Shown here: piece by piece, positions 2,729 through 22,987 of the stretch
Layout of the letters: every line of letters begins with the position of its first letter
Position numbering within the stretch: position 1 is the stretch's first letter
DNA from: Geodermatophilus sp. YIM 151500
GTDB lineage: Bacteria > Actinomycetota > Actinomycetes > Mycobacteriales > Geodermatophilaceae
Reading direction: 5' to 3'
NCBI RefSeq assembly: GCF_025716945.1
Contig: NZ_JAOVZT010000001.1
Coordinates: forward strand, 617,648-681,647
Length of the DNA stretch: 64,000 nucleotides
Notes under the pieces: generated by a model
Told to the model about the DNA's origin: nothing
Databases searched by the model: none
What the model saw: the letters and a program-made list of their open reading frames with translations, nothing else
Position numbers and translations under genes: made by a program

Positions 2729-3766
2729 ATGGCGAACGACACCTCCGGATCCGGCTACGTCGAGCAGGGCGGCTACGAGCGGGACACGCAGTACCTCGCC
2801 GACCGGATCACCGCCGACGGGTCGAGCGGCTGGCCGGTCGAGCCCGACCGCTACCGGCTGGTCGTCGCCCGCGCGTGCCCGTGGGCCAACCGTGCGGTCA
2901 TCGTGCGCCGGCTGCTGGGCCTCGAGGACGTCATCTCCATGGGCATCTGCGGTCCGGTGCACGACGAGCGCAGCTGGACCTTCGACCTCGATCCCGGCGG
3001 CCGCGACCCGGTGCTCGGCTACGAGCGGCTGGAGGAGGCCTTCCTCGCCCGCGACCCCGGGTATGCGAAGGGCATCACGGTGCCGGCGATGGTCGACGTC
3101 CCGACGGGAGCCGTCGTCACCAACGACTTCCCGCAGATGACGCTCGACTTCTCCACCGAGTGGGCGAAGTTCCACCGCGACGGCGCGCCCGACCTCTACC
3201 CCGACGAGCTGCGCGACGAGATGGACGACGTCATGCGGCGCGTCTACACCGAGATCAACAACGGCGTGTACCGCTGCGGCTTCGCCGGCGACCAGACGGC
3301 CTACGACGAGGCCTACGCGCGGTTGTTCGCCACCCTGGACTGGCTCGAGGAGCGGCTGTCCGGGCGGCGGTACCTGATGGGCGGGCACGTCACCGAGGCC
3401 GACGTCCGCCTGTTCACGACGCTCGCCCGCTTCGACGCCGTCTACCACGGCCACTTCAAGTGCAACCGGCAGAAGCTGGCCGAGTTCCCCGCGCTGTGGG
3501 GCTACGCGCGCGACCTGTTCCAGACCCCCGGCTTCGGCGACACCATCGATTTCCCGCAGATCAAGGAGCACTACTACGTCGTCCACGCCGACATCAATCC
3601 GACGCAGATCATCCCGGCCGGTCCCGACACGTCGGTCTGGTTGACCCCGCACGGCCGCGAGGAGCTCGGCGGGTCGCCCTTCGGCGACGGCACCCCGCCC
3701 GGACCGCCGTCGGCGGAGGAGACGGTGCCGGCCGAGCACGGGCCGGGCGGCATCCCGCACCGCTGA
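2729..3766 (+). CDS. Glutathionyl-hydroquinone-reductase-like GST-fold protein
   Basis: The 345-residue protein resembles the ECM4/YqjG family (Xi-class glutathione transferases, S-glutathionyl-hydroquinone reductases). The thioredoxin-fold domain carries the catalytic motif ACPWANR with Cys50, followed by GVYRCGF and the all-helical C-terminal half with RYLMGGHVTEADVRLF and HFKCN. Family members reductively remove a thiol from quinone conjugates. Most actinobacteria use mycothiol rather than glutathione, so the physiological thiol here is uncertain. I chose ATG 2729 because the family N-terminus begins close to that point; an ATG at 2558 is in frame but would add an unrelated low-complexity leader. 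A 22-bp sequence overlapping the stop is repeated downstream. Confidence 0.85.
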   Translation: MANDTSGSGYVEQGGYERDTQYLADRITADGSSGWPVEPDRYRLVVARACPWANRAVIVRRLLGLEDVISMGICGPVHDERSWTFDLDPGGRDPVLGYERLEEAFLARDPGYAKGITVPAMVDVPTGAVVTNDFPQMTLDFSTEWAKFHRDGAPDLYPDELRDEMDDVMRRVYTEINNGVYRCGFAGDQTAYDEAYARLFATLDWLEERLSGRRYLMGGHVTEADVRLFTTLARFDAVYHGHFKCNRQKLAEFPALWGYARDLFQTPGFGDTIDFPQIKEHYYVVHADINPTQIIPAGPDTSVWLTPHGREELGGSPFGDGTPPGPPSAEETVPAEHGPGGIPHR

Positions 3767-3813
3767 GCCCGGACCGGGTGGCTCTCCCGCGCCGCTGAGC
3801 CCGGACCGGGTGG
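3760..3813. repeat. 22-bp direct repeat over a gene end
   Basis: The 22 bp spanning the stop codon of the reductase gene (3760-3781) recur exactly at 3792-3813, a period of 32 bp. This looks like a small slippage duplication of the gene end. The second copy is noncoding. Confidence 0.75.
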
Positions 3814-3846
3814 CGTCCCCGCGCCCGGGGACCGTGGCCGGCGCGG

Positions 3847-4092
3847 TCAGCTCCCGGACTGCGGCGTCCAGGCCCCCGTCGACAGCTTCTGGAACACCAC
3901 GCCGAGGGCCTGCAGCAGCGTCAGGGACTCGAGTGTTCGCAGCCGCGAGGCCTCGGCCTGCACCTCGGCCCAGCTCACCTCCGGCGCGGACTCGCGGAAC
4001 AGCTTCCGCGCCTCGGCCAGGGCCTGGGAGACGCCGGTGAGGCAGACGTCGGGCCCGAACAGGGGCCGCACGCCGATCGGTTCGATGCGCAT
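3847..4092 (-). CDS. Small hypothetical protein (81 aa)
   Basis: An 81-residue frame starts at ATG 4092 and ends with TGA. The product is predicted helical (QALAEARKLFRE, EVQAEASRLRTLESLTLLQALGVVFQKL) with no signal peptide or membrane segment. I do not recognise a domain. It lies 82 bp downstream of the EAL gene on the same strand and could be cotranscribed with it. Amino-acid composition and codon positions look like a real gene, but the Shine-Dalgarno is weak and the size is small, so confidence is moderate. Confidence 0.5.
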   Translation of the reverse strand: MRIEPIGVRPLFGPDVCLTGVSQALAEARKLFRESAPEVSWAEVQAEASRLRTLESLTLLQALGVVFQKLSTGAWTPQSGS

Positions 4093-4174
4093 GGGCCCGA
4101 CGCTAGGAACCGGACCGCAAGGAATCCGCAGGGAAGCGGTGAGGAAGGCGCGAGATCCGCCGGCCGGCCGCGGA

Positions 4175-5053
4175 TCAGACGACGGCGGCCCGCTCCCGCT
4201 CCATGCCGTTGGTACTGCCCGTGAGGCACTCGGCCAGCGGATCGGCGGCGGCGAACAGCCACCCCTGCGCCGTCGGGCAGCCCATGCCGAGGAGCGCGGC
4301 CCGCTGCTCCTCGGTCTCCACGCCGACCACCGTCACCGCGAGGCCGGCCTCGCCGGCGAGGTCGACCAGCCGCTGGACGACGGCGCGGTCGCGGCCGCTG
4401 CCGAGGAAGCCGGCCACGTAGCAGCGGTCGATCTTCACCCCGTCGGCTGCGACCGCCCGCAGCCGCCGCAGCGAGATCCCGCTGCCGGCGTCGTCGACGA
4501 CGACCGCCACGCCGGCGTCCCGCAGCTGCCCGATCGGCCGCGCCGCGCCGTGCAGGTCGTCGACGACGAGCGCCTCGGGCACCTCGATCCGCACGAGCGA
4601 CGGCGGCAGGCCCGCCTTGCTGGCCGCGTCGACCAGCAGCTCGGGCAGGCCGGGCGCCAGCACCCGCTCGGCGCTCACGTTCACGTGCAGTGCGATGGCC
4701 GCCGCGTCGTGGCTGAGGGCTCGCCGGTGCGCGGCGAAGTCCGCGATCGCAGTGCGCAGCACCCAGTCGTCGAGCAGCGGCAGCTCGCCCGCGCGCGCCA
4801 GGTCGGCCAGGAAGGTCTCCGGCGTCAGCAGCCCGCCCCGCGGGTGCCACCAGCGGACCAGCGCCTCCACGGCGACCGGCGCCGCATCGGCGAGCCCGAC
4901 GAGCGGCTGGTACCGGAGCTGGAGCTCACCGCGTGCGGACGCGCGGCCGACGGTCGACTCGGCGTGCTCCACGGAGCGGGCGCTCCGGGGCGAGGGGATG
5001 TGCATGGCGGCTGCCTCGTGCTCCGCAGGGCCGGCGGGGGATCGGGAGTTCAT
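4175..5053 (-). CDS. EAL-domain protein (putative c-di-GMP phosphodiesterase)
   Basis: A single EAL domain of about 250 residues. The signature appears as VEALVRWWHP; other family blocks are present in order: HVNVSAERV, RIEVPEALVVDD, VVVDDAGSG, VKIDRCYV, VVGVETEEQ and QGWLFAAADPLAE. The fifth block normally reads DDFGTG and the KID block is intact, so metal binding is plausible although several positions are variant. The expected role is hydrolysis of cyclic di-GMP, opposing the GGDEF protein at 1281-2525. I chose ATG 5053 (292 aa). An ATG at 5005 has a better GAGG Shine-Dalgarno and also keeps the whole domain, so the start is uncertain; a longer frame to 5203 has an unconvincing Arg/Gly leader. 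Confidence 0.82.
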   Translation of the reverse strand: MNSRSPAGPAEHEAAAMHIPSPRSARSVEHAESTVGRASARGELQLRYQPLVGLADAAPVAVEALVRWWHPRGGLLTPETFLADLARAGELPLLDDWVLRTAIADFAAHRRALSHDAAAIALHVNVSAERVLAPGLPELLVDAASKAGLPPSLVRIEVPEALVVDDLHGAARPIGQLRDAGVAVVVDDAGSGISLRRLRAVAADGVKIDRCYVAGFLGSGRDRAVVQRLVDLAGEAGLAVTVVGVETEEQRAALLGMGCPTAQGWLFAAADPLAECLTGSTNGMERERAAVV

Positions 5054-16220: not shown

Positions 16221-17339
16221 CTACAGCGGCACCACCGGCGCCGTCACCGACCGGGTGCCACCCGACCAGCCGGGGAGCAGCAGCATCTTCACGCCCACGC
16301 CGCCGGTCACCACCAGGTGCAGGTCGGACGGCGACGGCGCCACCGCCAGCCCCTCGAGCACCGCGGGATCGGTCGGGAACCCGCCGCCGGACGACGCCGA
16401 CCCGGACCGCACCGACCCGGACGACGTCGAAGCGGACCGCGCCGACCCCGACGCCAGCGACGCCACCAGCTCCGCCGCACCCGCCCGCAGCTGCGCGCCG
16501 CCCCGGTCGAACAGGTGCCGCGCGATCTCGTCCGGGCCCCAGCCGCGGTCGGCCAGGAAGCCCGCCAGCTCCGGCGGCAGCAGCAGCACCGAGTCGTACT
16601 GCGCCGCCCGCCGAGGGTCTCCCGCCGCCAACCCCACCGCGGCCAGCGCCGCCGCGACCGGGGCCAGCAGCGTCTCGGCGTCCCGGTACCCCAGGCCCGG
16701 CAGCACCTCGACCGTCCCGGCCACGCCGAGCACCGTCACCGCGTCGCCGCTGACTCCCCGCCGCGCGGCCAGCGACGGCCACGGGCCGTCCTCGCCCTCC
16801 GCCGTGCAGCAGGTCAACTTGGCGGGTTGTCCATGGGTCGACATGTCGGTGAGTCCACTCGTCGCCCCGCCGATCCCGGCCAGCGCCAGTGCCACCGCCC
16901 GACCGACGCACACGTTGGCCCGGCTGCCCGGCCCGAGCCCGTTGCCTCGCGAGGTCATCCCGAGCCGCGCCGCCACGGGGCCGTGCACCAGCACGCCCAC
17001 CGCGGCCGCCCCGGTCGTGGTCGACATCCCCAGCAGGTTCACCCCGGCGTCCAGGGCCGACCGCGCCGCGGCCACCACCACCGGCAGCTCCGCCGGCCGG
17101 CACCCGGCCAGCACCGCGTACCAGGCAACCGCCCGCGCGGTCAGGTCGCCGCCCAGCGCCGGCACCCGGCCGTACACCAGGTCCGGCGCCTCCACGTCGG
17201 CGAGCATCGCGGCCAGCCGCGCGCGGGTCGGCGGCACAACCGGCAGCCCGTCGCCGTGCCCGGCCTCGAGCAGCCGCTCCAACACCTCGACCGGGTCGGC
17301 GTCGTCGGCCACGACCGGCAGGCCGGTCGGACCGGTCAC
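16221..17339 (-). CDS. Paralogue 2 of the UGSC-operon partner protein
   Basis: The 372-residue protein is clearly homologous to the product of 17478-18500. Shared blocks are GDGLPVVPPTRARL, AGCRPAELPVVVAAARSAL, GPGSRANVCVGRAVALAL, IGGATSGLTDMSTHGQPAK and LHLVVTGGVGVK. I do not know an enzymatic assignment, but such proteins are encoded next to UGSC-type (seleno)proteins here. The Cys in AGCRPA is conserved between the two; the paired cysteines NCGTNCFG of the paralogue are absent (GNGLGPGS instead). Residues about 295-327 are a Ser/Gly/Ala-rich low-complexity insert. The gene is the last of the operon, is separated from its paralogue by a tandem repeat array, and ends with TAG. Confidence 0.72.
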   Translation of the reverse strand: MTGPTGLPVVADDADPVEVLERLLEAGHGDGLPVVPPTRARLAAMLADVEAPDLVYGRVPALGGDLTARAVAWYAVLAGCRPAELPVVVAAARSALDAGVNLLGMSTTTGAAAVGVLVHGPVAARLGMTSRGNGLGPGSRANVCVGRAVALALAGIGGATSGLTDMSTHGQPAKLTCCTAEGEDGPWPSLAARRGVSGDAVTVLGVAGTVEVLPGLGYRDAETLLAPVAAALAAVGLAAGDPRRAAQYDSVLLLPPELAGFLADRGWGPDEIARHLFDRGGAQLRAGAAELVASLASGSARSASTSSGSVRSGSASSGGGFPTDPAVLEGLAVAPSPSDLHLVVTGGVGVKMLLLPGWSGGTRSVTAPVVPL

Positions 17340-17477: not shown

Positions 17478-18500
17478 TCATGCCGGCACGGCCCGCGACA
17501 CCGCCGCCGTCGCCCCGAACGACGGGATCCACGCCGAGTGCTTCCCCGCTCCCCCGGCCACCAGTACGTGCAGCTGCTCCGGACCGGTGCTCACCGTGTA
17601 CGCGTCGCCGTCGGGCACGACCCCCCAGTCCTCGAACTGCTTGCGGTTGTTCGCCGACACCTTCGCCACCGGGATCCGCGCCTGCTCCCACAGCCGCTGC
17701 TGCAGCGCCGGCACCGTCCACCCGTCGCGCGCCAGGGTCGCCGCGTGCTCCGGCCCCAGCACCAGGAAGTGCGGACCCTTCACGTACACGTTGTTCGACC
17801 CCGGCTGCGCCATCACCCCGGAGATGGTCAGCAGCAGGTCCTCGGCCGACGTCCCGCCGTGGTCGTTGACGTTGTGCGGGCCCTCCGTGGCCGCCACCGT
17901 CACCACCGACTCGCCGGGCGCGAAGCCGCGCCGCGCCGAGTACGGCTCGAACGGGCTCTCCTCCTCGTTCTCGCCGAAGCAGAACGTGTACTTCGCCGGC
18001 CCGCCCTGCGTCGAGCGGTCCATCGAGCCCGGCCGCGCGCCGCCGATGTTCGTCGTCACCAGCTGCACCGCCCGGCCGATCACCGCGTTGGCCCGCGTGC
18101 CCTGGCCGAAGCAGTTCGTGCCGCAGTTGACCCGCAGCGCGGTGCGCACCGGCCCGGACACGACCACCAGCGGCGCGCACGGGTGCGTCGTCGCCAGCAC
18201 GCCGTGCAGGTTGTACTCGGGCGCCTGCAGCGCCCGCACCGCGGCGAGCACCACCGGCACGTCGGCCGGCCGGCAGCCGGCCATCACGCAGTTGGCCGCG
18301 AAGCTCTCAGGCGTCGGCACCAGCCCGGACGGCGGCAGCGGACCGAGCTCCAGCTCGACGCCGTCCAACGCGCGCAGCGCCGCCTCCACCCGGGCCGGCG
18401 TCGGCGCGACCAGCGGCAGCCCGTCGCCCCAGCCGCGCCGCAGCGCCTCGTCCTGCCAGTCGTCCTCGGTGATGCCCGGCAGGTCCAGCACCGCGCTCAC
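17478..18500 (-). CDS. Paralogue 1 of the UGSC-operon partner protein
   Basis: The 340-residue protein starts at GTG 18500, only 13 bp after the stop of the UGSC-domain gene. Recognisable blocks are WGDGLPLVAPTPARVE, NCVMAGCRPADVPVVLAAVRAL, NCGTNCFGQGTRANAVIGRAVQLV, NIGGARPGSMDRSTQGGPAKYTFCFGENEEE and the closing LHVLVAGGAGKHSAW. It is related to 16221-17339. Several cysteines (AGC, NCGTNC, TFCF) could take part in redox chemistry. I cannot name the family with certainty. Tight linkage to the (seleno)protein gene suggests that the three products act in one reaction. Confidence 0.75.
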   Translation of the reverse strand: MSAVLDLPGITEDDWQDEALRRGWGDGLPLVAPTPARVEAALRALDGVELELGPLPPSGLVPTPESFAANCVMAGCRPADVPVVLAAVRALQAPEYNLHGVLATTHPCAPLVVVSGPVRTALRVNCGTNCFGQGTRANAVIGRAVQLVTTNIGGARPGSMDRSTQGGPAKYTFCFGENEEESPFEPYSARRGFAPGESVVTVAATEGPHNVNDHGGTSAEDLLLTISGVMAQPGSNNVYVKGPHFLVLGPEHAATLARDGWTVPALQQRLWEQARIPVAKVSANNRKQFEDWGVVPDGDAYTVSTGPEQLHVLVAGGAGKHSAWIPSFGATAAVSRAVPA

Positions 18501-18513
18501 GATCGCACCCCCG

Positions 18514-19995
18514 TCACGACGACCCCCGCGCCTCGTCGGCCACCGCCAGCAGCTCCCCCGTCGCGGCCTCGACCCGCGACGCGAGCTCGGCCTCGTTCAG
18601 CCCGCCCACCGGGTGCGGCACGACGACGAACCGCGGCGACACCCGCTGCGCCTGCGCCTGCGCGCGCACCAGCGGCAGGAAGCTCTCGGTCACCACCAGC
18701 GGCGCCACCACGCCGCGCTTCTCCAGCTGCACCGAGTCGTGGAGACTCCACGACGAGCACGAGCCCTAATCACCGACCGCGACCAGCACCATCTTGAACC
18801 GCTCGGACAGCCAGTCGATGGTGTCCTTGTCGGCGGCCACCGACGCGTTCGGCTTGCTCGCGAACCCCAGCTCGGGCAGCGCCCAGTGCTCCTGCAACCG
18901 CGCACCCAGGCCCTGCAGCAGCTCGGTCGCGTTCGGCTTGGAGTTGCTGAACAACGCCACCTGCGACCAGTCCGCGGTGCCCCCGCTCGCCATCGCCGCC
19001 GCCTCGTCGGCCGGCGGCACCCCGTGGGTCGGGTCGACCACGCGCAGCCCGCCGGCCGGCGGCGCAGCAGCCGGCGTGGGTCCGGCGCCCGACCGCAGCG
19101 CCGCCACGGCCGCCCGCCCCGCGGCCGCGCCGTCGGCCTCCGCCGCCGGCAGCTCCTCGACCGCACCGGCGCGCGCGTCGCCGGCCACGAACAGGTTCCG
19201 GACGGCGGTCCGGCCGCCCTGCTCGGCGACCAGCCGGCCCGCCCCGTCGACCGGCAGCCCCTCGACCAACGCCTCCGGTCCGCGTCGCCCGACGTAGGGG
19301 AACACCCCGCGCACCGTCAGCTCCCGCTCGCCGTCGACGGTCCGGACGACGACGCCCGACAGCACGCCCTCGCCGCGCAACCCCACGACCGACGCGCCGG
19401 CGAGCACCTCGACGTTCTCCACGGCCGCCAGCCGCGCCGCCCGGGACGCCGACCACCGCGGCTCCCCCGGCACCAGCACCGTCACCGCCGACGCCAGGCC
19501 GGCCAGCTCGAGCGCCTCCTCGGCGGTCCACTCGTCGTCGCCGACCACGGCCACCGGCGCGCCGCGGAACAGCGGCCCGTCGCACCCGGCGCACGTCGAC
19601 ACCCCGCGCCCGGCCAGCTCCGCCTCGCCGGGCAGCCCCAGCCGCCCGGGCCCGAGGCCGGTGGCCACGACGACGGCGTCGGCGGTGATCTCGCCGTCGG
19701 CGGTGTCCAGCCGCAGCGGCCCCTCGCCGTGCACCCGCGTCACCTGCGCGTACCGGACCGCCACCCCGGCGGCCTCCGCCCGCTCGACCAGCCGGGCCAT
19801 CAGGTCCGGGCCGGAGCCGGTGAAGCCCGGCACGCCGTGCACCGCGGTCAGGTTGACCAGCTGCCCGCCCGGCGCCAGCTGGTCGAACACGGCGACGTCC
19901 AGCCCCGCGCCCGCGGCCTCGGTCGCCGCGGCGAGCCCGGCGGTGCCGGCCCCCACGACGGCGACGTCCCAGTGCGCGTCCCGCCCGGCGCTCAC
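18514..19995 (-). CDS. Flavoprotein-UGSC fusion, putative UAG-encoded selenoprotein
   Basis: The frame is GTG 19995 to TGA 18514-18516, with one internal TAG at 18766-18768. Residues 1-300 form a thioredoxin-reductase-like FAD/NAD(P)H domain: GAGTAGLAAA (15-24), VVVATGLGP, redox motif CAGC at 135-138, and the FAD-binding NLFVAGDARAGAVEELPAAEADG region. Residues about 317-493 match UGSC (seleno)proteins: LFSNSKPNATELL, then VAVGD, the TAG codon as residue 410, GSCSSWSLHDSVQLEKRG, and FVVVPHPVGG. The family carries Sec or Cys immediately before GSC. I infer selenocysteine at UAG; total length would be 493 residues. The start overlaps the upstream stop (GTGA), and the downstream partner gene follows after 13 bp. 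The alternative is a nonsense mutation ending the protein at residue 409. Confidence 0.8.
18728..18768 (-). promoter_or_regulatory. UAG recoding site with SECIS-like hairpin
   Basis: Read on the minus strand, the TAG codon (18768-18766) is followed 19 nt later by a three-base loop GTC closed by a perfect 7-bp stem, TCGTGGA/TCCACGA (18753-18737). One more G-C pair lies below the stem, then an internal loop, then TGC/GCA pairing (18759-18757 with 18730-18728). Bacterial SECIS elements lie within the coding region just after the Sec codon, with a small apical loop that has G near its 5' side, about 16-37 nt from the codon. This hairpin meets those rules. It overlaps the conserved SWSLHDS codons, so part of the structure could be coincidence of coding constraint. 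Confidence 0.65.
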
Positions 19996-21071
19996 GCCGT
20001 CACCAACCCGGTCGAGATCCGCGGCCACAGCTCGTCGGCGCCGGCCTCGGCCAGCCGCCGGCCCAGCTCGCGGTTCCACCAGCGCTCGGAGCCGAACTCG
20101 TCGCGCCACGACCACAGCCGCCGCGACAGCTGGCCCAGCTCGTACTCCTTGGTCATCCCGATCGCGCCGTGCGCCTGGTGCGAGTGCCGGGCCGCCGTCG
20201 TCGCCGCCTCCGACGCCACCGCCTTCGCCGAGGCGACGTCGGCGAACGACGGGTCGGGCCGCGCGTTGCCGGCCGCCACCTGGACGGCGAGCTGCGCCAG
20301 CTGCGCCTCCTCGGCGATGGTCACCAGGTGCGCCTGCACCGCCTGGAAGCGGGCCACCGGCCGGCCGAACTGGTGCCGCTCGCCGGTGTAGCGGACCGTC
20401 AGGTCGCTGACCCGGGCCAGCGCGCCGGAGATCAGCGCCGCCCGGGCCAGGGCGCCGCGCAGCCGCAAGGCGTCGGCGTGCACCCCAGGCGGCGCCTCGG
20501 CCACGGCGTCGTCGGGCAGCGCCCCGCCGTCCCAGGTCAGGGTGTCGCGCGGCTCGTCCGCGAGGTTGCGCCCCGGCGTCACCGACGCCGACGACGTCGG
20601 CGCCGACACCACGTACGTGCTCCCGCCGGACGGCGCCAGCAGCACCACCCGCTCGGCCCGACCGCCCCACGGCACCCGGTGCACCCGCGCCGACAACGAC
20701 CACGAGCCGGGCCCGCCGGTGAGCGACACCGTGTCGTCGGGCCGGCCCACCGCCACCGACAGCGGCCCCTCCGGCAGCTCCAGCCCGGCCGCGCCGAGCG
20801 CCCAGCCGCCGAGCAGCCCGGCCTCGGCCAGCGGCACCGGCGCGGCGAACCGGCCGGCGACCGCGAGCAGCGCGCAGGCGTCGGCGACGTCGCCCCCCGA
20901 CCCGCCGGCCTCCTCGGGCACTGACACGTACGGGAAGCCGGACTCGGCCAGCGCGTCCCACAGCCGCGCCGACCAGCCGGAGCCCTCCGCGGCGACGACG
21001 TCCTCGGGCGTGCACAGATCGCCGAACAGGCCGGTCGCGACCTCGACCAGCATCGAGCGGTCGTCACTCAT
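19992..21071 (-). CDS. Acyl-CoA dehydrogenase (small subunit type)
   Basis: The 359-residue protein from ATG 21071 belongs to the acyl-CoA dehydrogenase superfamily. The N-terminal part is short and divergent, the C-terminal helical domain is typical: QFGRPVARFQAVQAHL, HQAHGAIGMTKEYELGQLSRRLWSWRDE. It lacks the clear SEPxxGSD flavin-binding strand of its upstream neighbour, which is common in the partner subunits of actinobacterial heteromeric FadE pairs. It overlaps the neighbouring genes on both sides by 4 bp (ATGA upstream, GTGA downstream), so its product is probably made in fixed ratio with the 21068-22219 protein and the UGSC flavoprotein. Confidence 0.85.
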   Translation of the reverse strand: MSDDRSMLVEVATGLFGDLCTPEDVVAAEGSGWSARLWDALAESGFPYVSVPEEAGGSGGDVADACALLAVAGRFAAPVPLAEAGLLGGWALGAAGLELPEGPLSVAVGRPDDTVSLTGGPGSWSLSARVHRVPWGGRAERVVLLAPSGGSTYVVSAPTSSASVTPGRNLADEPRDTLTWDGGALPDDAVAEAPPGVHADALRLRGALARAALISGALARVSDLTVRYTGERHQFGRPVARFQAVQAHLVTIAEEAQLAQLAVQVAAGNARPDPSFADVASAKAVASEAATTAARHSHQAHGAIGMTKEYELGQLSRRLWSWRDEFGSERWWNRELGRRLAEAGADELWPRISTGLVTA

Positions 21072-22219
21072 CGACCCAGTCCCTTCGCCGCGACCCCGCG
21101 CAGGATCTCGTTGGTGCCGCCCCGCAGCGTGTACGACGGCGCGGTCAGCACCGCCTCGGCGAGCAGCGCCTCGAACAGCGAGGCCGACCCGGCGTCCAGC
21201 TCGGTCTCGACAGCGGCCCGCAGCGCCTCGACCACCTCCTGCTCGAAGCGGGTGCCGATCTCCTTGACCAGCGCCGCCTCCACCGCGGGCGCCTCCCCGG
21301 CGTCCAGCGCGCGGGCCACCGACAGCGACATCTGCCGGATGGCCCGGTAGCGCGAGGCCAGCCGGCCGAGCACGACGGCCTCGTCGTCCGTGGCGTGCTT
21401 GCCGGCGTCGCGCCCCGGACCCTCGCGCAGCCACTCGCGCAGCAGGGGGAACGTCGACAGCCAGCGGTCGGGACCGCTGCGCTCGTAGGCCAGCTCGCTG
21501 GTCACCTGCTGCCAGCCGCTGCCCAGCTCGCCGAGGACCATCTCGTCGGGGACGAACACGTCCTCCAGCGCCACCTCGTTGAAGTGGTGCGACCCGTCGA
21601 GGTACGGGATCGGCGAGACGCGCACCCCGTCGGCGTGCAGGTCGACGATCAGCTGCGACAGGCCGGCGTGCTTGCTGCCCTCCTCCGGCGGGGACGTGCG
21701 GCAGAGCACGGCGAACCAGTGGTTCCGGTGCGCCTCGCTGGTCCACACCTTGGTGCCGGTGACCCGCCAGCCGCCCTCGACCCTCGTCGCCCGGGTGCGC
21801 ACCGAGGCCAGGTCGGAGCCCGAGTCGGGCTCGCTCATCCCGAGGCTGAAGTAGATCTCGCCGGCCGCGATGCCGGGCAGGAAGCGGCGGCGCTGCTCCT
21901 CGGTCCCGAACTGCAGCAGCGTCGGCCCGGTCTGCCGGTCGGCGACGAAGTGCGCGCCGATCGGCGCGCCGGCGGCCAGCAGCTCCTCGGCGACGACGAA
22001 CCGGTCGACCGCGCTGCGGCCGTGCCCGCCGTACTCGGGCGGGATCGCCATGCCCACCCAGCCGCGGGCGGCCAGCTTCCTGGAGAACTCCGGGGCGTGC
22101 CGGCCGGCGAAGCCCAGCGCCGGCCGCGAACCGGCCGGCAGCTCGGCGGCGAGGAACTCGCGCACCTCGGCGCGCAGCGCCTCCTCGGCGGCGGTCAGCG
22201 ACGTGACGGCGAAGTGCAT
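21068..22219 (-). CDS. Acyl-CoA dehydrogenase (large subunit type)
   Basis: A 383-residue acyl-CoA dehydrogenase introducing an alpha-beta double bond in an acyl-CoA with FAD. Key blocks are GWVGMAIPPEYGGHGRS, FSLGMSEPDSGSDLASVRTRA (flavin/substrate loop), VTGTKVWTSEAHRNHW, the helical-domain ELAYERSGPDRWLST, and the closing LRGGTNEILRGVAAKGLGR. It is followed with a 4-bp overlap by a second, divergent dehydrogenase, so a heteromeric enzyme like the mycobacterial FadE pairs is likely. The equivalent pair at 47694-49986 has the same order. Confidence 0.9.
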   Translation of the reverse strand: MHFAVTSLTAAEEALRAEVREFLAAELPAGSRPALGFAGRHAPEFSRKLAARGWVGMAIPPEYGGHGRSAVDRFVVAEELLAAGAPIGAHFVADRQTGPTLLQFGTEEQRRRFLPGIAAGEIYFSLGMSEPDSGSDLASVRTRATRVEGGWRVTGTKVWTSEAHRNHWFAVLCRTSPPEEGSKHAGLSQLIVDLHADGVRVSPIPYLDGSHHFNEVALEDVFVPDEMVLGELGSGWQQVTSELAYERSGPDRWLSTFPLLREWLREGPGRDAGKHATDDEAVVLGRLASRYRAIRQMSLSVARALDAGEAPAVEAALVKEIGTRFEQEVVEALRAAVETELDAGSASLFEALLAEAVLTAPSYTLRGGTNEILRGVAAKGLGR

Positions 22220-22249
22220 GCGGGGCGCTCCCTGGGTCGACCGGGCCGG

Positions 22250-22987
22250 TCAGGCCGTCTCGCGGCGGCGCTGCGACCACATCTGCGTGGCCCGCTCGAA
22301 GTGCAGGGCCGCCTCCCAGCCGATCCCCGGCGGGCCGGCCTCGGTGCGGAACGACCGCGCCGCCTCCCGGGCCAGCTCGGGGTCCTTCGCCGCGCGGCCG
22401 GCCAGCTCCATCGCGAGGTCCTCGACCTCCTCGTCGGGCACCGCGCGCCAGGCCAGCCCGATCTCGGCGGCCCGCGTGCCGCTGATCTCCTCGCTGAACA
22501 GGCCCATCGCCGCGGTCGCCTCGCGGCCGGCGGTGCGGCTGGAGATGGTGAAGTAGCCGCCGCCGGGGTGCAGCCCGATGCGCAGGAAGCCGGCGAGGAG
22601 CCGGGCGGTCTCGCTGACGATGCGCAGGTCGGTGGCGAGCGCCAGGTTGATCCCGGCGCCCACCGCGGCGCCGCGGACGGCGGCGATGGTCGGCACCGCC
22701 AGCGTGCCCACCCGGCGGAAGGCGGAGTAGACCGCGCCGAGCTCCTTATAGGTCGTGTCCTCGGCCTGGTCGGCGCCCGGCGTCCAGCGCCGCCGGTCGG
22801 CACCGGAGCAGAACGTGCCGCCGGCGCCGCGGACCACCGCCGCGCCGATCGCCGGGTCGGCGTCGACCTCCTCGCACAGCGCGGAGAGCTGCATGCCCAT
22901 CTCCGGCGTCAGGCCGTTCTTGACGTCGTGGTTGTCGACGGTGAGCACGGCGATGCCGCCCTGCTTGTCCAGGTGGACCTGTCCCAC
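22250..22987 (-). CDS. Enoyl-CoA hydratase/isomerase family protein
   Basis: The 245-residue crotonase-fold protein starts at GTG 22987 with an AGAGGGA Shine-Dalgarno. The CoA-binding and oxyanion-hole blocks are present: GAGGTFCSGADRRRW and AAVRGAAVGAGINLALATDLRIV. The position of the second catalytic glutamate lies in the segment FLRIGLHPGGGYFT, where the usual acidic residue is not obvious, so hydratase activity is not certain and isomerase or hydrolase chemistry is possible. Position in the operon between the acyl-CoA synthetase and the dehydrogenases supports a role in beta-oxidation of a specific acid. Confidence 0.87.
   Translation of the reverse strand: MGQVHLDKQGGIAVLTVDNHDVKNGLTPEMGMQLSALCEEVDADPAIGAAVVRGAGGTFCSGADRRRWTPGADQAEDTTYKELGAVYSAFRRVGTLAVPTIAAVRGAAVGAGINLALATDLRIVSETARLLAGFLRIGLHPGGGYFTISSRTAGREATAAMGLFSEEISGTRAAEIGLAWRAVPDEEVEDLAMELAGRAAKDPELAREAARSFRTEAGPPGIGWEAALHFERATQMWSQRRRETA

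Follow-up and report, generated by a model that had tools for sequence, protein, structure and literature searches.

A gene predicted to encode a UAG-programmed thioredoxin reductase-like UGSC selenoprotein, and the move of the selenocysteine codon in Geodermatophilaceae

Background

The natural use of UAG as a selenocysteine (Sec) codon is rare, and represents a clear case of a codon changing its meaning along with its tRNA. The UAG-programmed selenoproteins of Geodermatophilaceae were reportedly confirmed by 75Se labelling or mass spectrometry in the 2016 work of Mukai and colleagues. In bacteria the element that marks a Sec codon, the bSECIS, is a hairpin just downstream of the codon with a G-containing apical loop.

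The sections of PMC5330540 available to us describe a tRNA-Sec with the anticodon CUA in three Geodermatophilaceae genomes, credit UAG-Sec formate dehydrogenases and UGSC proteins to Mukai 2016, and add an AhpC selenoprotein with Sec-TAG in Blastococcus saxobsidens DD2. The phenomenon, UGSC proteins included, is therefore already known for this family of soil actinobacteria, and the report to which the first-pass annotation of the present DNA had pointed is recognizable in this account. Judged from the same sections, the locus described here resembles the Mukai et al. 2016 system in the bacterial family, the CUA tRNA-Sec, the UAG at the Sec site and the UGSC-motif selenoproteins, while the difference is that the switch is here surveyed over 112 genomes. 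It shares the codon, the tRNA type and the bacterial family with the DD2 AhpC as reported there, but it is another gene and belongs to a different protein family. Our literature search, which left most subscription journals outside its reach, returned no title on a family-wide survey, on a fusion of thioredoxin reductase (TrxR) and UGSC domains or on the solute-binding protein (SBP) treated below. Hence three points are apparently new: the placement of the switch on one branch with an unchanged hairpin, the TrxR-UGSC fusion, which among the best 80 of 399 loci is confined to those with TAG, and the family-5 SBP as a candidate selenoprotein of the sel cluster.

Results and discussion

A TrxR-UGSC gene with one internal UAG

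The gene lies on the minus strand of the window, by which we mean the whole 64-kb stretch of DNA that was analysed. Its frame of 493 codons runs from a GTG at 19995 to a TGA at 18516-18514 and contains a TAG as the sole internal stop (Table 1). The surrounding codons (GTC GCG GTC GGT GAT TAG GGC TCG TGC) read VAVGD-[TAG]-GSCSSWSLHDSVQLEKRG, with the TAG at the place of U in the GD-U-GSC motif; termination there would leave a product of 409 aa. It had been claimed beforehand that a TAG at this position interrupts a flavoprotein frame and sits in the motif GD-[TAG]-GSC after VAVGD. Rereading of the codons gives the same position and the same motif, preceded by a TrxR-like domain and covered by the UGSC domain of PF24696.

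Table 1. Positions of the features in the window and, for the solute-binding protein, in locus L021
Feature	Coordinates	Strand	Details
TrxR-UGSC fusion gene	18514..19995	minus	493 aa with UAG read; predicted GTG start, TGA stop
Thioredoxin-reductase-like FAD/NAD(P) domain	19108..19971	minus	residues 9-296; TIGR01292 E 5.6e-57, Pyr_redox_2 (PF07992) E 2.9e-29
CAGC, CxxC redox motif of TrxR domain	19582..19593	minus	intact in sequence
UGSC domain	18544..19041	minus	residues 319-484; PF24696 E 1.1e-36
In-frame UAG, predicted selenocysteine codon	18766..18768	minus	residue 410/493; Sec/Cys column among relatives
bSECIS-like hairpin GUCGUGGA-GUC-UCCACGAC	18736..18754	minus	loop 18744-18746, 19 nt after UAG
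NB1, conserved neighbour of UGSC genes	17478..18500	minus	340 aa
NB2, paralogue of NB1	16221..17339	minus	372 aa; ends in TAG
Family-5 SBP (P0003), L021 (G000:C49)	2868-4556; TAG 3351-3353		between selC and selA; PF00496 E 9.3e-44

The N-terminal domain scores 192.8 bits against the TIGR01292 equivalog, below its cut-off of 343.45, and is therefore classed as TrxR-like rather than filed as TrxR. The predicted structure of the whole protein (pLDDT 87.7) matches TrxR in Foldseek with E about 1e-27, and the best 50 structure matches listed are all of the TrxR type, including AhpF; a viral structure library yielded nothing further. The motif C..CDG is present in 14/14 TAG homologue frames examined (one of 15 loci was omitted by the motif filter). 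The UGSC domain, which spans the UAG, reaches 127 bits with PF24696 (gathering cut-off 25) and 112.8 bits with NF041046, below the cut-off of 125, so the protein is filed under the Pfam domain family and not under the NF041046 equivalog. By sequence, this domain has two weak, chance-like matches among solved structures. The locus thus shares with the described UGSC family (NF041046/PF24696) the domain, the GD-U-GSC motif and a column of Sec or Cys, and differs from it by a UAG instead of a UGA as Sec codon, by the fused TrxR part and by a score short of the NF041046 cut-off.

The Sec column in homologues

A search with a pattern that left the Sec column free gave 399 confirmed loci, of which the best 80 were named. 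Among these 80, TAG is found in 15/15 loci of Geodermatophilaceae (Geodermatophilus, Blastococcus and Modestobacter) and TGA in 65/65 of the others, which belong mostly to Proteobacteria and include Pseudonocardia, Actinomycetospora, strains and MAGs labelled Rhizobiales or Hyphomicrobiales, Reyranella, Acetobacteraceae and others. This distribution indicates that Sec is retained across the lineages and that its codon varies between them. A family search, which matched 53/112 family genomes, supplied 30 loci with 23 TAG and 7 Cys at the Sec column (most rows of the other matches carry one TAG), and a class search with matches in 16/394 genomes supplied 25 loci with 3 TAG, 1 TGA and 21 Cys. An alignment of UGSC homologues had been suggested as a check, and all relatives that were read have UAG, UGA or Cys at this column.

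The arrangement of the domains also follows the codon. Among the best 80 of the 399 loci, TrxR and UGSC share a single frame in all 15 TAG loci, and the TGA loci have a separate TrxR frame just upstream (61/65), a TrxR frame elsewhere (1) or none (3). The fusion therefore looks particular to the TAG lineage.

tRNA-Sec and sel genes

The genome that contains the window (G000; 4.77 Mb, 99.8% complete) has a tRNA-Sec at C49:2601-2692 with the anticodon CUA (ARAGORN cta; RF01852 66.4 bits, cut-off 47). It is the single tRNA-Sec detected there: RF01852 has eight matches in all, and the remaining seven prove to be tRNAs for Ser, Leu, Thr, Met and Gly. No tRNA-Sec with UCA was found in the genome, and UAG should accordingly be its sole Sec codon. 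The genes selA (334.4 bits), selB (274.6) and selD (387.1) all score above their cut-offs and cluster with the tRNA-Sec within the initial 7.8 kb of contig C49, so that both a selC with the anticodon CUA and the three sel genes, which the first-pass annotation had proposed to look for, are present. The tRNA differs from the UCA tRNA-Sec of a relative (G074) at 8/92 positions: both changed anticodon letters, one compensated anticodon-stem pair and four positions elsewhere. ARAGORN names the CUA tRNA-Sec 'tRNA-Pyl' (L001 1501-1592 and other CUA loci), which is an annotation trap. Together with standard-code gene calls, which cut such genes, this label makes the proteins easily missed.

The hairpin after the UAG

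The stem of the hairpin has 8 bp (18754-18747 paired with 18743-18736) and begins 11 nt past the TAG. The hairpin and its GTC loop had been noticed before, but the earlier description of a 7-bp stem starting at 19 nt needs correction, 19 nt being the distance to the loop. Its folding energy is unremarkable (z -1.76; 12/200 shuffles equally good), and there is no excess of stability over synonymous recodings, 44/200 of which are as low in energy; the mean energy z against such recodings is +0.28 for 9 distinct TAG stretches and -0.46 for 40 TGA stretches. After this null result the energy criterion was dropped, and the evidence for the hairpin is the conservation of its codons.

Across 82 distinct homologous genes (18 TAG and 64 TGA; the motif filter excluded loci with VAVAD instead of VAVGD, and close relatives do not count as independent) the codons of the hairpin show little or no synonymous change. 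Ser +7 is AGT in 82/82, while AGT makes up 1/120 of the in-frame Ser codons outside the hairpin in TAG genes and 17/412 in TGA genes; likewise, Ser +5 is TCG in 82/82, Asp +10 is GAC in 82/82 and His +9 is CAC in 80/82. This comparison of synonymous changes among relatives, another of the checks suggested earlier, demonstrates that the hairpin is conserved as nucleotides. This conservation exceeds chance, as does the specificity seen in the scan of the window below. No covariation was found in the UGSC stem because it hardly varies. In six TAG paralogue loci (L071, L072, L078, L081, L087 and L250) the loop and its distance are kept and the stem letters have changed, as in GUCGUGCA-GUG-UGCACGAC. 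The geometry and the conserved nucleotides fit a bSECIS, in agreement with the spacing and loop type first claimed for it, and binding by SelB is predicted. Moreover, the core is identical in UAG and UGA genes: the codon moved and the hairpin did not.

A scan of the window for internal stops with coding-like composition on both sides, a simple filter rather than gene calls, gave 12 sites. The UGSC TAG alone is followed, at the appropriate distance, by an 8-bp hairpin with a GU loop. A second stop (28087, plus strand) has a 6-bp hairpin, and for the remaining ten the rule of the script finds no hairpin. Nor does a SECIS-like hairpin follow the terminal TAG of NB2 by the hairpin-scan rule. Given this TAG, and given that TAG terminates 6/30 of the window's ORFs selected by composition (TGA the other 24), UAG is also still a stop.

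How the UAG may be read

The product of the gene is in all probability a selenoprotein with a UAG-programmed selenocysteine, as first supposed from the letters; the CUA tRNA, the sel genes, the identity of the column and the nucleotide-level conservation of the hairpin, all read in the DNA together with the codon itself, support this prediction. We infer a route of Sec insertion in which SelA and SelD would make Sec-tRNA-Sec with the anticodon CUA, and SelB would bind the hairpin just past the codon and bring this tRNA to the UAG, while UAG codons that lack such a hairpin would still terminate genes. The product would be a thioredoxin-reductase-like flavoprotein with its own UGSC domain. Electrons would probably pass from NADPH through FAD and the CAGC disulfide to the Sec-x-x-Cys pair, and then to a putative substrate; the linkage of a CxxC flavoprotein to a U-x-x-C domain suggests direct reduction of the latter.

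It is highly improbable that the TAG is an ordinary stop, be it in a broken or mis-sequenced gene or at the end of a truncated flavoprotein followed by an untranslated remnant. A standard-code gene call does end at this codon, and TAG closes some ORFs of the window as noted above. However, the TAG recurs in 18 close orthologues from other family genomes (73-81% identity) and in the 15 named loci, a set that may overlap with the 18, the downstream domain is conserved and coding-like, and relatives have TGA or Cys at exactly that column; the ordinary-stop reading is already contradicted by this conservation. Equally hard to credit is the decoding of UAG as pyrrolysine, or an unspecific amber read-through, given that the tRNA scores as tRNA-Sec well beyond the cut-off, has four of its few differences from the UCA tRNA-Sec of G074 in the anticodon arm, lies beside selDAB and serves a column that is Sec or Cys in relatives. 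The anticodon CUA and the ARAGORN label would suit pyrrolysine, as would the pyrrolysine-screen table of PMC3639795, in the part available to us, where Geodermatophilus obscurus has a tRNA 'Verified by Infernal*' with the footnote 'No UAG-anticodon'.

A partial reading as Sec is a variant of the best explanation, in which the 409-residue flavoprotein and the 493-residue selenoprotein would both be functional, perhaps by selenium supply. We consider it conceivable but rather unlikely. The TrxR domain is complete ahead of the UAG, and, according to the sections seen of PMC8124441, release factor 2 and Sec insertion are in competition at UGA; yet the separate TrxR frame in 61/65 TGA loci (best 80 of 399) implies that the UGSC domain is no optional tail of the flavoprotein.

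The code switch in the family

A tRNA-Sec was detected in 108/112 family genomes at E <= 1e-9, and the four genomes without one are at most 82% complete. The anticodon is CUA only in 100 of the 108 (genus codes g1-g5 and g9-g12), UCA only in seven (g6-g8) and both in one; no other genome of the 112 shares the genus code of G000. In other families 29/29 tRNA-Sec have UCA (best-scoring 29 loci of the order search). A SelA tree of 82 genomes, 78 with CUA (including the one with both) and 4 with UCA (g7 and g8, as no g6 SelA was available), can be explained by a single code change, the UCA rows being placed on one side of a branch with support 100 (quick method, no outgroup). Since UCA and CUA differ by two bases, an intermediate with UUA or CCA must have existed if these were changed one by one.

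The genome with both anticodons (G059) carries its UCA copy in L082 (G059:C17, 1173-1263, minus). On this 69-kb contig SelA, SelB, SelD and SBP gave no match at E <= 1e-3, and a simple scan, which flagged one TAG, yielded no TGA Sec candidate. The UCA tRNA-Sec lies close to a transposase-like ORF, named by eye. Formate dehydrogenases (E <= 1e-150, 85/112 genomes matched) have no TAG inside, and the published UAG type was not reproduced at that cut-off; an internal stop is found only in G072 and G074, as TGA.

We lean, with some reserve, towards a single step at the base of most Geodermatophilaceae that replaced UGA by UAG as the Sec codon of all selenoprotein genes and left the hairpin unchanged, together with a new selenoprotein family encoded in the sel cluster of some of these genomes. 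The latter would be a family-5 SBP read through UAG, with an N-terminus that by eye is not signal-peptide-like, perhaps for selenium or metal handling. Because the family has both UCA and CUA genera, and a homologous gene with TGA and TAG next to the same hairpin, the migration of a recoded codon is directly testable before and after the event.

A candidate selenoprotein in the sel cluster

The SBP gene between selC and selA (Table 1) has its TAG in the context GEGHW-[TAG]-VID with a hairpin downstream, and its product matches SBP_bac_5 and NikA-type models. It or a relative is found in 14/112 family genomes (E <= 1e-40), and none was found in the 393 other genomes of the class sample at E <= 1e-60. 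A close kind (73-89% identity) occurs in seven genomes, G000 included, and adjoins selC and selA in six of them; the contigs of the seventh (G096) do not show the arrangement. These copies are whole in 5/7 and interrupted past the Sec site in G058 and G048, which speaks against an essential role. The relatives of a second kind, at 43-50% identity, have a stop codon at the site wherever it is covered.

The two kinds together comprise 17 distinct copies, 15 with TAG, each from a CUA genome, one with TGA (G074, UCA) and one with TAA. As an independent gene, the SBP shows the same UGA/UAG switch as UGSC. UAA was rejected as a Sec codon: the TAA copy (L109, G075:C70), from a genome with a UCA tRNA-Sec, has residues 6-25 and 27-531 in different frames, an extra in-frame TAG and a weak hairpin, and is probably a decaying copy or an assembly fault. 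Most copies retain a hairpin whose loop lies at 20 nt from the codon. Its covariation is limited to one pair changed on both sides in 3/10 sequences, and 372/500 shuffles gave as many pairs.

We regard the SBP as a candidate new selenoprotein, putatively UAG-programmed. The selenoprotein-family table of PMC13188914, in the portion seen, contains SaoX (NF040735), SaoB (NF040727) and other transport proteins, and no family-5 SBP was noticed in that portion. SaoX and SaoB are, on that partial view, substrate-binding proteins with a predicted Sec, like the candidate SBP, which differs in its UAG codon, its place between selC and selA and its SBP_bac_5/NikA type; it has no match to either model at E <= 0.001. 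In the literature, as far as accessible, nothing was found for selenocysteine with SBP_bac_5, and selenoprotein with solute-binding protein led to Planctomycetes work.

Neighbouring genes

Neither NB1 nor NB2 matches any Pfam or NCBIfam model at E <= 0.001. The predicted model of NB1 is confident (pLDDT 87.1) and has no PDB match below E 0.39, and its sequence has no match among solved structures. Of the 80 named UGSC loci, 77 have a TrxR-like match nearby and 79 have NB1, several contigs ending close by, and the association of NB1 and NB2 with UGSC genes is conserved from Actinomycetota to Alphaproteobacteria. Upstream of the fusion gene, at 19992-22987 on the minus strand of the window, are two acyl-CoA dehydrogenase-like genes and one enoyl-CoA hydratase-like gene.
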